NCBI GenBank assembly: GCA_002068815.1
Contig: MWAC01000033.1
Span: forward strand, 1-13,709
Direction of reading: 5' to 3'
Length of the DNA: 13,709 bases
Source of the DNA: Firmicutes bacterium ADurb.Bin467
GTDB lineage: Bacteria > Bacillota > Clostridia > Christensenellales > Aristaeellaceae
Shown: in pieces, positions 5,546 to 13,709 of the stretch
Layout: each line of letters begins with the position of its first letter
How positions within the stretch are numbered: the first letter of the stretch is position 1
Program-made: the position numbers and the translations under genes
Notes under the pieces: model-generated
What the model was told of the DNA's origin: nothing
Databases searched by the model: none
Seen by the model: only the letters and a program-made list of their open reading frames with translations

Positions 5546-5574
5546 TTGACATCCTGCCCCGGGGGACATATAAT
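5546..5574 (+). promoter_or_regulatory. Perfect consensus sigma-A promoter for the ATP-grasp/aminomutase pair
   Basis: TTGACA (5546-5551), a 17-base spacer and TATAAT (5569-5574): a full match to the consensus in both hexamers. Transcription should begin near 5581. Such a match in a GC-rich genome is unlikely by chance and implies strong transcription, or a strong promoter held down by an unseen regulator. Confidence 0.85.
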
Positions 5575-5639
5575 ATCATTCGATCCGATGGGAAATGGCG
5601 AATCCCGGGTTCCAAAATAACAGAGAAAGCCGCAGGCGC

Positions 5640-6692
5640 ATGTCTATGGAGCAGCTCGATTCGGAGGTTCCTCTGGCACCCCCAATTCACACCGTCGCCG
5701 TACTCTACAACTTGAAAAAAGGCATCGCAGCCAAGGCGCCGGACGCCGAGGCGGAATACGACAAGATCGACACCGTTCACGCGATCCGCGACGCGCTGGA
5801 GAGCGGCGGGCTGTCGGTCACGCTGCTCGAAGCCGACGAAGGGCTTCCGGGGCTTATTTCGCATGAGCGTCCCGACATCGCGTTCAACATCGCCGAGGGG
5901 CTTTCCGGCCGCGGGCGCGAGGGGCAGGTTCCCTCGCTCCTCTCGATGCTCGGCATCCCCTTCACGGGCTCGGACGCGACGACCCTGTGCATCGCGCTCG
6001 ACAAGGCGCTCACGAAGCGCGTGCTCTGGACGCACCGCGTCCGCACGCCGCACTATGAGGTCGTCGAGCCGGGAAAGACCCGGCTGACCAAGGCGCTTTC
6101 GTTCCCGGTCATCGTAAAGCCGAACTGCGAGGGCTCGAGCAAGGGCATCGGCGCGGTCAGCATCGCCGAGGACCGGAAGGCGCTCTCGGAGATACTCAGG
6201 CGCAACCACGAGCTCTACGAGGGCGAAATGCTCGTCGAGGAGTACGTCGAGGGCCGCGAGTTCACCGTCGGAATCCTCGGAAACTTCGCGTCCGCGCGCG
6301 TGTTCCCGCCGATGGAGATCGTGTTCCGGCAGCCCACCGAGGGGGCGCACACCGTCTACAGCTACCCGGTCAAGCAGGACTACACGCGCTACGTGCGCTA
6401 CGAGTGCCCGGCCAACCTCACCGAAGAGCAAACGAGGGAGATCACGGACATGGCGCGGCGCGCGTTCAACGCGCTCAACTGCCGAGACTTCGCGCGCGTC
6501 GACTTCCGGATGGGCGCGGACGGCAAAATGTACTTCATCGAAATCAACCCGCTCCCCGGGCTCGCCCCGGGGTACAGCGATTATCCGATGCTGGCGCAGT
6601 TTTCGGGCGTCGGATATCGGGAGCTCGTGCGCGGGGTCCTCGACGCGGCCGCGAAGCGCCTTGGGCGCAGCGTTGATTGGAGGGAGTTGTAG
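5640..6692 (+). CDS. D-alanine-D-alanine ligase-like ATP-grasp enzyme, atypical
   Basis: An ATP-grasp ligase of the Ddl-like group; such enzymes join an amino acid carboxylate to an amine through an acyl phosphate. Counting from the in-frame ATG at 5595 (365 residues): NIAEGLSGRGREGQ (98-111) and PFTGSD (122-127) resemble the Ddl N-terminal and linker region, VKPNCEGSSKGI (174-185) is the ATP-binding loop, EEYVEGREFTVG (215-226) the hinge region, and RVDF (301-304) with EINPLPG (316-322) supplies metal ligands D303, E316 and N318. It departs from true Ddl in two ways: the N-terminus reads VAVLYNLKKG instead of the GGxSxEH motif, and the tail after NPLPG reads LAPGYSDYP. The start is uncertain: 5595, 5640 and 5646 all have weak ribosome sites; I chose 5640 because the codons before it look non-coding. 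kamA begins 2 bases after its stop. Its substrate is unknown. Confidence 0.85.
   Translation: MSMEQLDSEVPLAPPIHTVAVLYNLKKGIAAKAPDAEAEYDKIDTVHAIRDALESGGLSVTLLEADEGLPGLISHERPDIAFNIAEGLSGRGREGQVPSLLSMLGIPFTGSDATTLCIALDKALTKRVLWTHRVRTPHYEVVEPGKTRLTKALSFPVIVKPNCEGSSKGIGAVSIAEDRKALSEILRRNHELYEGEMLVEEYVEGREFTVGILGNFASARVFPPMEIVFRQPTEGAHTVYSYPVKQDYTRYVRYECPANLTEEQTREITDMARRAFNALNCRDFARVDFRMGADGKMYFIEINPLPGLAPGYSDYPMLAQFSGVGYRELVRGVLDAAAKRLGRSVDWREL
6679..6686 (+). promoter_or_regulatory. Ribosome binding site that sets the aminomutase start
   Basis: GGAGGGAG lies inside the last codons of the ligase gene, 8 bases before the ATG at 6695. It supports that ATG over an in-frame TTG at 6677, which has no such site at the right distance and sits almost on top of this one. 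Confidence 0.75.
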
Positions 6693-6694
6693 CG

Positions 6695-7777
6695 ATGGAA
6701 AAGCGCGCTGAACGCTGGAACGACTGGAAATGGCAGTTTTCGCACCGCATCACGACCTCCGGGCAGTTGAAGGGCGTGATCCCGCTCGACGAAGCCGAGC
6801 GCGGGGACATCGACAAGTGCCTCGAGCACTTCCGGATGGCGATCACCCCCTACTACGCGTCGCTGATCGACCCGAGCGACCCGAACGACCCGATCCGCAT
6901 GCAGGCCGTGCCGTCGCCGAGGGAACTGACCCCCTCCGAGGACGACATGGGCGACCCGCTCGGCGAGGAGCACGACAGCCCCGTGCCGTTCGTCGTGCAC
7001 CGCTACCCGGACCGCGTGCTCTTGCTCGTCACGTTCCAGTGCTCGATGTACTGCCGCCACTGCACGCGCCGCCGCGCCGTCGGCGAGGAGGACAAAATCA
7101 TCCCCGAGCGCGCGCTCCAAAGGGCGCTCGACTACATCCGCTCGCGCCCGGAGATTCGGGACGTGCTGATCTCGGGCGGCGACCCGCTGACGATGTCGAC
7201 CGCGAAGCTCGAGCACATCGTGTCCTCGGTGCGCGCGATCGAGCACGTCGAGGTGATCCGCATCGGCACGAGGGTGCCGGTCGTGCTCCCGATGCGCGTG
7301 GACGAGGAGCTGCTTTCGATGCTCCGCAAGTACCACCCGATCTGGATCAACACGCACTTCAACCACCCGCGCGAGGTGACGCCGGAGGCGAAGCGCGCGT
7401 GCGAGGCGATCGTCGACGCGGGCATACCGCTGGGCAACCAGAGCGTGCTCTTGCGCGGGATCAACGATGACGCGGAGACCATGCGGGAGCTGCTTCTCAA
7501 GCTCGTGAAGATGCGCGTGCGCCCCTACTACCTCTACCAGTGCGATCTGAGCCAGGGCATCGGCCACTTCCGCACGCGCGTCGAGGAGGGCGTCGAGATC
7601 TTGAAGAGCCTGACCGGGCGCATCTCCGGCTTCGCGGTGCCGAAGTTCGTCATCGACGCGCCGGACGGCGGCGGGAAGATCCCGATACAGCACGACTACG
7701 TGCTCAAGAAGGACGACCGGGAGGTGCTCCTCGAAAACTGGAAGGGGGAGACGTACCGGTATCCGCAGCCGAAATAG
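6695..7777 (+). CDS. kamA: Lysine 2,3-aminomutase-like radical SAM enzyme (KamA family)
   Basis: A 360-residue radical SAM, PLP-dependent aminomutase, predicted to convert L-lysine to beta-lysine by moving the amino group from C2 to C3. The [4Fe-4S]/SAM motif is C116-x3-C120-x2-C123. With a constant offset of 9 from my recollection of the Clostridium subterminale enzyme, all key residues are present: R125 (substrate carboxylate), D284 in CDLS and D321 in DAPDGGGK (lysine side-chain amine), and K328 (PLP lysine). Having both aspartates argues for lysine rather than glutamate as substrate. The protein is shorter than the roughly 416-residue clostridial enzyme: the C-terminal zinc-binding cysteines are absent and the matching internal cysteine position is D259. 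It follows the ATP-grasp gene by 2 bases and shares its promoter. Lysine degradation partners (kamD/kamE, kdd, kce) are not visible, so a biosynthetic or modifying role is plausible. Confidence 0.9.
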   Translation: MEKRAERWNDWKWQFSHRITTSGQLKGVIPLDEAERGDIDKCLEHFRMAITPYYASLIDPSDPNDPIRMQAVPSPRELTPSEDDMGDPLGEEHDSPVPFVVHRYPDRVLLLVTFQCSMYCRHCTRRRAVGEEDKIIPERALQRALDYIRSRPEIRDVLISGGDPLTMSTAKLEHIVSSVRAIEHVEVIRIGTRVPVVLPMRVDEELLSMLRKYHPIWINTHFNHPREVTPEAKRACEAIVDAGIPLGNQSVLLRGINDDAETMRELLLKLVKMRVRPYYLYQCDLSQGIGHFRTRVEEGVEILKSLTGRISGFAVPKFVIDAPDGGGKIPIQHDYVLKKDDREVLLENWKGETYRYPQPK

Positions 7778-7849: not shown

Positions 7850-7887
7850 CGAAACCGACGGCGTGTACGTCGGTTTCGCGCATTTTT
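7850..7887 (+). terminator. Terminator-like hairpin between the two repeat copies
   Basis: Perfect 11-base arms CGAAACCGACG (7850-7860) and CGTCGGTTTCG (7868-7878) with a 7-base loop, followed after CGCA by TTTTT (7883-7887). The T run begins 4 bases beyond the stem, so termination may be partial. Confidence 0.6.
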
Positions 7888-7925: not shown

Positions 7926-7960
7926 TCCGGGAGTCGGCGGACGTCGGCTCCCGGTTTTTT
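7926..7960 (+). terminator. Intrinsic terminator, hairpin repeat copy 2
   Basis: The same hairpin as 7781-7809 with one change (T for C in the left arm, which becomes a G-T wobble). This copy is followed directly by TTTTTT (7955-7960), so it is a good rho-independent terminator for the ligase-aminomutase unit. The -35 box of the next promoter begins 8 bases later. Confidence 0.85.
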
Positions 7961-7967
7961 CGCGCGC

Positions 7968-7996
7968 TTGACAGCATCGGGACGGACGGGTATAAT
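7968..7996 (+). promoter_or_regulatory. Perfect consensus sigma-A promoter for the TSCPD gene
   Basis: TTGACA (7968-7973), a 17-base spacer and TATAAT (7991-7996), identical to consensus. The transcription start is expected near 8003, giving a leader of about 26 bases that contains GGAGG (8016-8020). Confidence 0.85.
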
Positions 7997-8028
7997 TGGG
8001 CGTATGCACCGATACGGAGGGCGCTGAA

Positions 8029-8280
8029 ATGCACAGCTTCAAGACGCGCGGGACCTGTTCCCGGCAGATTCAGATAGAGATTTCGGAGGACACTGTCCGG
8101 CGCGTGGAGTTCATCGGCGGCTGCGCCGGGAACGCACAGGGCGTCGCGCGGCTCGTCGAGGGCATGAAGGTCGACGACGTGATTTGTAGGCTCAAGGGCA
8201 TACAGTGCAGAAGCGGCACCTCCTGCCCCGACCAGCTCGCCCGCGCGCTGGAGGACATCCAAAAGAACAATTCTCGATAA
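8029..8280 (+). CDS. TSCPD domain-containing protein (TIGR03905 type)
   Basis: A small 83-residue protein. It carries the TSCPD signature (residues 64-68) that names the domain, and the size and the GGCAGN segment (30-35) fit the short stand-alone family often listed as TIGR03905. The same domain occurs at the C-terminus of some ribonucleotide reductases, and its role alone is not known. Cysteines at 10, 32, 53, 60 and 66 could bind a metal or form a redox site; this is an inference. The ATG at 8029 has GGAGG 8 bases upstream, and upstream in-frame codons fall within the promoter, so the start is firm. It is followed after 12 bases by a membrane protein gene with its own ribosome site, so the two are probably co-transcribed. 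Confidence 0.9.
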   Translation: MHSFKTRGTCSRQIQIEISEDTVRRVEFIGGCAGNAQGVARLVEGMKVDDVICRLKGIQCRSGTSCPDQLARALEDIQKNNSR

Positions 8281-8292
8281 CGGAGGAAACGC

Positions 8293-8913
8293 ATGCTTTC
8301 AACCGAGGGCGGCCGCTACGAGGGCAGCGCGACGAGCGCCTATTCGCCGAACATCGTCCGGCCGGGGAAGCGCGCGCCGGGCGGCAGGCGCGCGGCGCTG
8401 AAGATCGCGCTGTGCGTGCTCGTGCCGCCGGTCGGGGTGCTCTACATCTGGCGCACGGGCTCGTTTCCGCTGCGCGGGCGAATGCTCGCGACGGCGATGG
8501 CGTTCGCCTCGATGCTCGTCATGTTCCTGCCGATGATCCCGAAGCCCCGGCTGAACGCCGCGTACCCGACCCCGGTCACGCCGCCGGGCGCGACGAGGGC
8601 GCCGGAGTCCGACGCCGTGACCGCGCTCTCGAACATCGAGCAGCTTTTGATCGCGCAGGAGGCCGCCGAGGCCGCGAAGCTGCAGGAGGGGCAGACCGCG
8701 CCCTCCGAGGAGGCCGCGCAGCGGGCGGCGCTGGAAGCGGAGAACGAGGCGATATACAACACGGTCGTCTACAGCGTGCAGAAGGGCGCGAAGCTCTTCC
8801 ACACCGGCCCTACCTGCGGAAACCAGGTCAACAAAAAGCAGCTGACCGTCCGCGAGGCGATCGCGGCCGGGCTCGGCGCGTGCCCGGACTGCAATCCGCC
8901 GACGCCGAAGTAG
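8293..8913 (+). CDS. Small two-helix membrane protein with a cysteine/histidine C-terminal domain
   Basis: Function not recognised. Of its 206 residues, about 34-53 and 64-82 are hydrophobic and form two likely membrane helices joined by a short basic loop. A proline/threonine-rich linker (90-105) and an alanine/glutamate-rich stretch (113-153, probably helical or coiled) follow. The last 50 residues resemble a small domain found at the end of many secreted or nuclease-like Gram-positive proteins: H170, C175, then C197-x2-C200 in GACPDCNPP, a likely metal site. By the positive-inside rule the basic N-terminus and the basic loop (about 54-63) are hard to reconcile, so topology is uncertain. 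The start has GGAGGA about 6 bases upstream. It is likely co-transcribed with the TSCPD gene, but no functional link is shown. Confidence 0.85.
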   Translation: MLSTEGGRYEGSATSAYSPNIVRPGKRAPGGRRAALKIALCVLVPPVGVLYIWRTGSFPLRGRMLATAMAFASMLVMFLPMIPKPRLNAAYPTPVTPPGATRAPESDAVTALSNIEQLLIAQEAAEAAKLQEGQTAPSEEAAQRAALEAENEAIYNTVVYSVQKGAKLFHTGPTCGNQVNKKQLTVREAIAAGLGACPDCNPPTPK

Positions 8914-12028: not shown

Positions 12029-13709
12029 ATGTCGCATTCGAGATTGAAGCCCCTTGGCGCCGCGCTCAAAAAACTGCTTGCGGCGCTGATCGCGATCGCG
12101 CTCGCGGTCGCGCTCGTCCCCGCGCTCGAGCCGGGCGCGCGGGCGGCCTCGAACGGCATGATCCGCGTGAAGCTGTCGCAGCTCGGCTCGCGCGCGAGCA
12201 TCAGCTTCAAGACGACGACCGCCTACTACATAAACGGCAACACGAACCAGAAGATCGCGTCCGGACAGTCCGCGACGGTGTCGATCTCGGGCGCGTCGCT
12301 GCTCCTGACGGTCGGCGGCGTCTCGGCGAACCTCGGGTCGTCGTTCGTGCTCGCGCGCGGGCAATCGGGGCTTTCGGGCGTGCAGTTCACGTCGCCGAGC
12401 CTCTCGAACCTGTTCTGCGGCGATCTGAAGTTCTCGATCTCCTCGTCCGTGATACTGCCGGTGCTCAACATCTACGTCGAGGACTACCTGCTCGGCGTCG
12501 TCGCCTACGAGATGTCGAACTCTTGGCCGCTGGAGGCGCTCAAGGCGCAGGCGGTCGCCGCGCGCAACTACGCGCTTCGCTGCAAGGGGAGCCGGTCGTC
12601 CAGCGCCTACGACGTGACCGACACCTCGACCGACCAGGTGTTCAAGGGCTACAATTCGAGTTACTCGCGCGTCGCGCAGGCCGTCAAAGAGACCGCGGGC
12701 ATGGCTCTCTACTACGGGAGCGCGCTCGCCGCGTGCTACTACACCGCCAGCAACGGCGGCCAGACCGAATCGACGAAGAACATCTGGGGCGGCTCGCTCG
12801 CCTACAGCATCGTCAAGGACGACCCGTACGACCTGCAGAACGCGAGCTCGACCAAGAAGACCGCGTCGCTGCGCAAAGACGCGATCGGGCTGAACGCCTC
12901 GCTCGTCGCGGCGCTGAAAAGCGGCATGGCGTCTCAGCTCTCCGCGAAGGGACTCTCGGCGAGCGCGGGCGACATCGCGATAACGCGCATCGCGTCGATC
13001 GAGCCGCACACGCCGGTGTACGCGGCCCCGAGCCGGCTGTTCAAAAAGCTGAAGTTCACGCTGGACGCAACTTCCAGGAACACCGCGGGGCAGAGCGTGT
13101 CCGCGACCGTATCGGTCGACGTGGACACCTACGGCGCGCTCGAGAGCTGGTATTCGCTCGGCATCAACACGAAGGACAACGAGACCGTCTGGGTCGAACA
13201 GACCGATTCGGCGTTCAACATCGTGTTCCGGCGCTGGGGCCACGGCGCCGGCATGAGCCAGCGCGGGGCGCAGGTGATGGCGAACCAAGGCATGGGCTAT
13301 TCCGACATACTGTCGTTCTACTACCCGGGCACGTCCTTGAAGAAGCTGACGCTCGAGGACACGACGGGCTCGGGGCTCTCAAGCGGCGGCGAGCTCCCGT
13401 ACGAGCCGATCGGGCAGGTGCGCGCGATCGCCGACGCGCCCGTGTACCAGAGCGCGTCGACCGGCGCGGCGGTGCTCGGCACGGTGCCGGCGGGCGAAAC
13501 GGTCGACGTGTACGGCGTCGAGACCGGCTGGGCCTTCATCGGCTGGGGGACGCTGCGCGGATTCGCCGAGACCTCGCTGTTCGTGATCGACGCCGAGCCG
13601 ACGGCAGTGCCGACCCCGTCCGCGCCGGGCGAGGGGCGAATGGCGGTCATCACGATGGCCTCCGAGACCGGCAGGCTGTATCTGCGCTCCGGCCCGTCGA
13701 CCGAGACCG
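12029..13709 (+). CDS. Secreted SpoIID/LytB-domain protein with SH3-like repeats, C-terminus cut by window edge
   Basis: 560 residues are visible with no stop. Residues 1-39 are a signal peptide: basic start, hydrophobic core (16-32) and an ARA cleavage site before A40. The SpoIID/LytB domain spans about 145-435. It carries EDYLLGVVAYEM (151-162) with E161 as the likely catalytic glutamate, PLEALKAQAVAARNYAL (167-183), YYTASNGGQTES (237-248), and near its end RRWGHGAGMSQRGA (401-414) and the SFYYPGT end. B. subtilis SpoIID is a lytic transglycosylase that trims peptidoglycan during engulfment. Two SH3-like wall-binding repeats follow (about 461-520 and from about 537), joined by a proline-rich linker. 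At well over 560 residues it is much longer than B. subtilis SpoIID (about 343), so it may be a general cell-wall enzyme rather than the sporulation protein itself. The start has GGAGGA before the ATG. Confidence 0.92.
   Translation, partial: MSHSRLKPLGAALKKLLAALIAIALAVALVPALEPGARAASNGMIRVKLSQLGSRASISFKTTTAYYINGNTNQKIASGQSATVSISGASLLLTVGGVSANLGSSFVLARGQSGLSGVQFTSPSLSNLFCGDLKFSISSSVILPVLNIYVEDYLLGVVAYEMSNSWPLEALKAQAVAARNYALRCKGSRSSSAYDVTDTSTDQVFKGYNSSYSRVAQAVKETAGMALYYGSALAACYYTASNGGQTESTKNIWGGSLAYSIVKDDPYDLQNASSTKKTASLRKDAIGLNASLVAALKSGMASQLSAKGLSASAGDIAITRIASIEPHTPVYAAPSRLFKKLKFTLDATSRNTAGQSVSATVSVDVDTYGALESWYSLGINTKDNETVWVEQTDSAFNIVFRRWGHGAGMSQRGAQVMANQGMGYSDILSFYYPGTSLKKLTLEDTTGSGLSSGGELPYEPIGQVRAIADAPVYQSASTGAAVLGTVPAGETVDVYGVETGWAFIGWGTLRGFAETSLFVIDAEPTAVPTPSAPGEGRMAVITMASETGRLYLRSGPSTET

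Follow-up and report, generated by a model that had tools for sequence, protein, structure and literature searches.

A Ddl-like ATP-grasp ligase conserved beside lysine 2,3-aminomutase suggests a route to beta-lysyl peptides in bacteria and archaea

On contig MWAC01000033.1 of Firmicutes bacterium ADurb.Bin467, a stretch of 13,709 nucleotides that was analyzed as a whole (hereafter, the window), an ATP-grasp ligase with the fold of D-alanine-D-alanine ligase (Ddl) is encoded immediately ahead of a lysine 2,3-aminomutase (KAM), a radical S-adenosylmethionine enzyme of the KamA family. Both genes are on the + strand, the ligase at 5646..6692 (348 aa) and the aminomutase, which matches TIGR03820, at 6695..7777 (360 aa). 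The aminomutase is predicted to make beta-lysine, and the adjoining ligase probably couples this product to a second amino acid, so that a small soluble beta-lysyl peptide would result. The functional link of KAM with this family of ligases is strong. In such a pathway KAM, using S-adenosylmethionine and pyridoxal phosphate (PLP), would shift the amino group of L-lysine from the alpha to the beta carbon; the ligase would activate one amino acid by phosphorylating its carboxylate with ATP, and the resulting acyl phosphate would be attacked by a second through its amino group, as happens in Ddl.

The pair is conserved far outside close relatives, across genera, families and phyla and up to the point of gene fusion; the restriction to close relatives that a preliminary description of this DNA had allowed for was not found. 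In a broad scan of 84,980 species genomes, KAM lies inside the examined flanks at 27 of the best 80 ligase loci (two of these KAMs are cut at contig ends). Twenty of these belong to the 25 loci that carry a Bacillota or Coriobacteria label; of the five others with that label, L037, L039, L057 and L104 show no adjoining KAM, and at L063 the sequence reaches only about 330 bases past the ligase. Named species with both genes include Oscillibacter valericigenes (L054) and Papillibacter cinnamivorans (L046). The remaining seven loci are three Omnitrophota, one each of Planctomycetales, Bacteroidota and Ignavibacteriae, and a deltaproteobacterial metagenome-assembled genome in which KAM stands 3.6 kb from the first ligase and beside a second one. 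A second ligase also occurs in the unit in Myxococcota, Omnitrophota, Planctomycetes and Bacteroidota. The association is also visible within the window's class, where 391 genomes were sampled (its own included) and 32 of them match the ligase profile at E 1e-60. When the match is at least 432 bits (18 genomes), KAM is directly downstream on the same strand in 15, one of them cut by a contig end, or in 14 of 17 if the genome of the window is set aside; none of the 14 genomes with weaker matches has an adjoining KAM. A KAM of the lysine aminomutase (LAM) type, defined by an identity of at least 50%, a threshold checked on the residues of 20 hand-chosen unpaired KAMs, is present in 25 of the 32 ligase genomes versus 44 of the 359 ligase-free ones, contrasts that are inflated, as are their Fisher values, by kinship among the genomes, three of which repeat loci of the best 80 (L035, L050, L051). 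Even where ligase and KAM are not adjacent, 10 of 17 class genomes have a LAM-type KAM. In the Myxococcus phylum 145 of 195 genomes carry the ligase, usually in a long open frame that matches it twice, and in at least four genomes, picked by eye, KAM precedes the ligase, three of them having a second ligase.

The two enzymes also occur as natural fusions. A query made of the joined ligase and KAM gave 7987 matches, and among the 120 listed, BLAST found both halves in 53 proteins, KAM only in 13 and the ligase only in 54; a joined query favors fusions, and hence 53 of 120 is not a frequency. Eight of the 53 have the window's order, ligase then KAM (lengths 709-944), and 45 the reverse, so that fusion would have taken place at least twice. 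In all 10 fusions examined Pfam recognizes the two halves, and the source names include an archaeon, Methanocellales, Nanoarchaeota, two Omnitrophota and Eubacteriales. A single-sequence structure model of one fusion, P0121, had a pLDDT of 32.9, too low to interpret. Such proteins make the question directly testable with one purified protein.

The Ddl fold is a full-length match for the window ligase in a structure model, and the ATP/Mg residues are present, but the enzyme is not the housekeeping Ddl. It falls under the cut-off of all 25 families looked at, of 50 that it matched, the best being NF002378 (192.8 bits vs a cut-off of 243), with TIGR01205 at 172.6 vs 245.65. Moreover, of 20 genomes with a member of the ligase family (five of them showing no KAM next to the ligase), 16 have a separate Ddl above the TIGR01205 cut-off, the family members themselves scoring below it. 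Two of the remaining four have matches just below the cut-off (236.8 bits in G448 and 241.8 in G454), G453 has fragments and G457 the family member only.

The substrate pocket was compared by aligning the window ligase, together with 16 family members, against 16 canonical Ddls taken from family-carrying genomes, the ATP/Mg, acyl-phosphate, acceptor and first-site residues being named by what we take to be their roles in Ddl structures. The His of the LHG motif, present in 16 of 16 Ddls, is Glu in all 17 family rows (LHG becomes AEG). The Tyr that follows a conserved Lys in all 16 Ddls is never found in the family, where Lys-Tyr is replaced by Lys-Gln/Lys, and the residue after the acceptor-site Ser, which is M, R, L or F in the 16 Ddls, is Asp in 17 of 17. 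The acceptor region as a whole reads PGxT-xSxYP in Ddl versus PGLAPGYSDYP in the family, which also has a 10-residue N-terminal insert relative to Ddl. The Ddl pocket signature (LHG, K-Y, S-[LMRF]) is thus absent from the window ligase. The site for ATP/Mg and the acyl phosphate keeps its Arg, Asp, Asn and Gly in all 17 family rows, which all have the first-site Glu as well; the second acid, a Glu, is kept in 16, with one residue unread. Glu in place of the LHG His, together with Asp after the acceptor-site Ser, would suit a cationic diamino acid; these family-fixed residues are Glu84 and Asp312 of the window ligase, counted from the ATG at 5646.

The aminomutase is of the lysine type, with a distinctive loss. 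It scores 530.2 bits against TIGR03820 (cut-off 525.4), three of five other paired KAMs falling under that cut-off (475.5, 522.5 and 522.9), and it has the CxxxCxxC radical-SAM motif, the PLP lysine and both lysine-binding Asp residues. The lysine-contact residues reported in the preliminary description are indeed there, as equivalents of Asp293, Asp330, Lys337 and Arg134 of the solved LAM 2a5h. The position of Cys268 is occupied by Asp, and the C-terminal Cys motif is absent; in clostridial LAM these cysteines presumably form a zinc site, and the window KAM is therefore a variant of LAM and not a standard one. Both Cys268 and the C-terminal Cys-x-Cys are missing from 32 of 32 paired KAMs, a set that omits two truncated sequences, excludes the window and includes some near-copies; the tail of one (L176) has two unrelated Cys. 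Among the unpaired LAM-type KAMs of the class (n = 15), Cys268 is found in 14 and the Cys tail in 14. A further five unpaired class KAMs have Lys/Asn at both Asp positions, which we take to be the glutamate type. In a tree of KAMs the window falls within a clade of 26 paired clostridial and coriobacterial rows (support 100/97), and the 15 unpaired LAM-type sequences form one group (96/90). A single clade of all the paired KAMs was considered and is not shown by this tree, which needs two changes and in which only the 26-row clade coheres.

The same features recur in the fusions, where the equivalents of Asp293, Asp330, Lys337 and Arg134 and the ligase Arg, Asp, Asn and Gly are kept in 53 of 53, Glu is at the LHG position in 52 and Asp at the acceptor position in 46, and Cys268 is present in just 2. 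A KAM is also found elsewhere in 23 of 24 genomes that have none adjoining the ligase. Of 32 rows of such non-adjacent KAMs in ligase genomes, 30 were examined; both Asp are present in 28 of these, and Cys268 is missing from 24. All four LAM-type KAMs from Bacillota are among the six that retain Cys268, so that in those genomes an ordinary LAM would be the source of beta-lysine. Short KAMs without the zinc-site cysteines may mark dedicated anabolic aminomutases, distinct from the fermentative ones.

How else could this gene pair be explained? One suggestion would be that the ligase serves cell-wall synthesis, as a divergent D-Ala-D-Ala (or D-Ala-D-X) ligase, and that its KAM neighborhood is incidental. 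The sub-threshold scores in all 25 families, the separate Ddl in 16 of 20 genomes, the fixed changes in the pocket and the fusion to KAM in both orders make this very improbable, and the first three of these rule out an ordinary housekeeping Ddl, an outcome that the preliminary description had named as one that would undo its proposal. Still less credible is the idea that KAM serves a known fate of LAM-made beta-lysine, such as Ne-acetyl-beta-lysine, the modification of elongation factor P (EF-P) or lysine fermentation, and that the ligase is unrelated to it. AblA/AblB osmolyte genes have been described for Pelobacter (PMC3543383). The ligase-KAM fusions speak against these fates, as does a survey of 16 chosen pair-carrying genomes, the window's own 74% complete one among them. 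AblB (TIGR03827) was above cut-off in 0 of 16, with weak sub-threshold matches in seven and none in the window's own genome; EpmA was above cut-off (286.9 bits) in 0 of 16, its best matches (227.6-261.1) being frames of lysyl-tRNA-synthetase size. Both the acetyl-beta-lysine and the EF-P routes are disfavored by these counts, and against the EpmB family TIGR03821 the window KAM scores 252.0 bits (cut-off 369.3). The lysine 5,6-aminomutase PF09043 was seen in 1 of 16, in a search that matched 0 of 14 control genomes. The Pfam scan detected no enzyme of lysine fermentation or lysine catabolism among the other window proteins, several scanned frames being without any match, in agreement with the earlier remark that no fermentation genes lie beside the pair.

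Two further explanations accept a coupling of beta-lysine and differ as to its product; both are unlikely, yet less so than the preceding ones. The ligase could tag the end of a protein or peptide, or some larger acceptor, with beta-lysine in the manner of RimK or tubulin-tyrosine ligase, in which case no free small peptide would result. ATP-grasp enzymes of other families are known to do so, and no conserved third gene names the acceptor; but it is Ddl, an enzyme acting on two free amino acids, that the fold matches over its full length, and an acceptor protein was not recognized among the neighbors examined. Alternatively, the conjugate could be part of a diffusible antibiotic or signal. This possibility draws on plasmid pTHIMO01 of Thioflavicoccus mobilis, where a cluster (L243, 4557-10038) brings together a diaminobutyrate transaminase, SbnA, an ornithine-cyclodeaminase-like gene, an ATP-grasp ligase and, on the opposite strand, KamA, possibly a pathway for diaminopropionate plus beta-lysine, and on two rhizobial plasmid ligases near MFS transporter genes. 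However, the plasmid ligases are distant (33-36%), the Thioflavicoccus one (33%) is without the family Lys and Asp and its KamA without Cys268, and no other biosynthetic gene or exporter stands beside the window pair or recurs in the clostridial loci examined. We prefer the synthesis of a small beta-lysyl peptide. Where the preliminary description had envisaged a pathway that makes beta-lysine and couples it to an amino acid, a peptide or a wall precursor, the conserved pair, the fusions, the differences from ordinary Ddl and the mostly missing outlets support that proposal, except for its wall-precursor branch, which finds no support.

There are several points that weigh against the synthesis of such a peptide, in addition to the kinship that inflates our contrasts. 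A close relative of the ligase was not found in the 59 nearest other genomes of the window's genus and family, the best other match having 38% identity; hence the unit is patchy and dispensable. The Bacillota loci L037, L039, L057 and L104 have the ligase with no adjoining KAM, and in the genome of L057 no KAM match was found at E 1e-40. Seven of the 32 ligase genomes of the class are without a LAM-type KAM at the threshold used, and five of these without any KAM match. In Myxococcota KAM is present in 180 of 195 genomes (138 of 145 with the ligase and 42 of 50 without it); being nearly universal, it makes their co-occurrence in that phylum say little. The near absence of PF09043 lacks a positive control, and the genes that could extend the pathway are rare, the S51-like ones found in just 3 of the 93 loci searched and the acetyltransferase in only two loci. 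Finally, it is from sequence that we infer beta-lysine to be the likely substrate of the ligase.

These rare lineage-specific additions nevertheless bear on what the product might be. The fusion protein P0128 begins at its N-terminus with an S51 peptidase domain, and genes 48-52% identical to it occur at locus L059 of Coriobacteriia (6193-6900, 7 bases upstream of the ligase), at L053 (454-1167, upstream of the ligase) and at L055 (10409-11104, 1.3 kb downstream of KAM). The S51 family counts dipeptidase E and cyanophycinase among its members, in keeping with a peptide that the cell could reclaim; in Coriobacteriia an S51-type peptidase would split the product. In one locus each of Bacteroidota (L109, 7845-8327) and Ignavibacteriae (L110, 2428-2904), a GNAT acetyltransferase that is under all the NCBIfam cut-offs looked at lies between tandem ATP-grasp ligases and KAM, giving the order ligase, ligase, GNAT, KAM, and in these lineages it would extend the unit. 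The likeliest use of the peptide may be that of a compatible solute or a store of nitrogen, much like carnosine or acetyl-beta-lysine, a weakly supported suggestion that we make with low confidence. On a broader scale the evidence is evenly balanced for a beta-lysine peptide pathway that spans several bacterial phyla and archaea, often as one bifunctional isomerase-ligase polypeptide, and that yields a new class of small beta-lysyl peptides, acetylated in some lineages and recycled by S51 peptidases in others, as a bacterial counterpart of carnosine. If this is true, many database entries annotated today as D-alanine ligase or KamA family protein are members of one unrecognized route, and the common annotation of the ligase as a second Ddl is wrong.

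The layout of the pair is that of a two-gene unit. Two bases separate the ligase stop TAG (6690-6692) from the KAM ATG (6695), as had been described. The open frame of the ligase runs from an ATG at 5595; its start is likely the ATG at 5646, where both the database entry P0001 and the homologues begin. The single perfect promoter previously noted ahead of the pair is of the sigma-70 type (5546..5574, + strand), with TTGACA at 5546-5551, a 17-nt spacer and TATAAT at 5569-5574, that is, 12 of 12 consensus bases. The terminator noted there takes the form of two terminator-like hairpins with T-runs, also on the + strand, one at 7850..7878, starting 73 bases past the KAM stop, and one of 12 pairs with a T6 run at 7927..7954, starting 150 bases past it. 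Between 5380 and 8100 there are three promoter-like sites (shuffle mean 0.4) and four terminator-like ones (shuffle mean 2.4), the latter count being weak by itself. The next gene downstream, of the TSCPD domain (7996-8280), has its own perfect sigma-70-type promoter at 7968-7996, and the unit therefore consists of two genes. In GC content and GC3 they are close to two neighboring genes.

Beyond the pair, Pfam assigned other likely genes of the window, which comes from an assembly of 1.67 Mb, to PHP, phosphodiesterase, glutamyl-tRNA synthetase, aldose epimerase, pseudouridine synthase, methyltransferase and SpoIID; an open reading frame (ORF) of 206 aa at 8293-8913 has no match in Pfam or NCBIfam. 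Clustering the ORFs of the best 80 loci found no third conserved gene, one 18-locus cluster aside, the large clusters looked at besides ligase and KAM being mostly frames that lie within those genes or on their opposite strand in GC-rich DNA, response regulators and genes that near relatives share. Neighbors of KAM in 14 stretches, mostly of Myxococcota, gave no lead; the six ORFs scanned were protein kinases, queuosine synthesis, SpoIID and one without a match. A SpoIID-domain gene is found both in the window (12029-13708, 4 kb from KAM) and in Myxococcaceae (L212, 6991-8817, 1 kb from KAM), probably by coincidence. At L212 (3391-4767) and its equivalents in L213-L216, a second, divergent KAM-like ORF (28-30% identity) overlaps the start of KAM; the one that was scanned gave no Pfam match.

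Among the titles and abstract openings listed by full-text literature searches, which covered few subscription papers, none described a Ddl-type beta-lysine ligase, and passages of PMC9088363 had no bearing on it. A 2009 survey of ATP-grasp amidoligases by Iyer and co-workers reportedly might mention such neighborhoods, and an earlier prediction is thus possible. Among characterized systems, Ddl (PF07478 / TIGR01205) has in common with the window ligase its fold and ATP/Mg residues, but the latter is set apart by its sub-cut-off scores, N-terminal insert, AEG, Lys-Gln/Lys and PGLAPGYSDYP. The AblA/KamA LAM (TIGR03820; 2a5h) resembles the window KAM in score and in the four lysine-contact equivalents, whereas the paired KAMs are without the Cys268 and Cys-x-Cys that 14 of 15 unpaired clostridial LAM-type enzymes possess. 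The known pathway that couples KAM to a partner is that of Ne-acetyl-beta-lysine by AblA/AblB, with osmolyte genes in Pelobacter (PMC3543383). There too KAM-made beta-lysine is the first step, and GNAT accompanies KAM in L109 and L110; the unit described here, however, has a ligase instead of AblB, which no pair genome surveyed has above cut-off. Carnosine synthase (ATPGD1; beta-alanine + histidine), described in PMC3407494 as an ATP-grasp enzyme that makes a beta-amino-acid dipeptide, is a parallel in mode of action only: it is an animal enzyme and uses another beta-amino acid.

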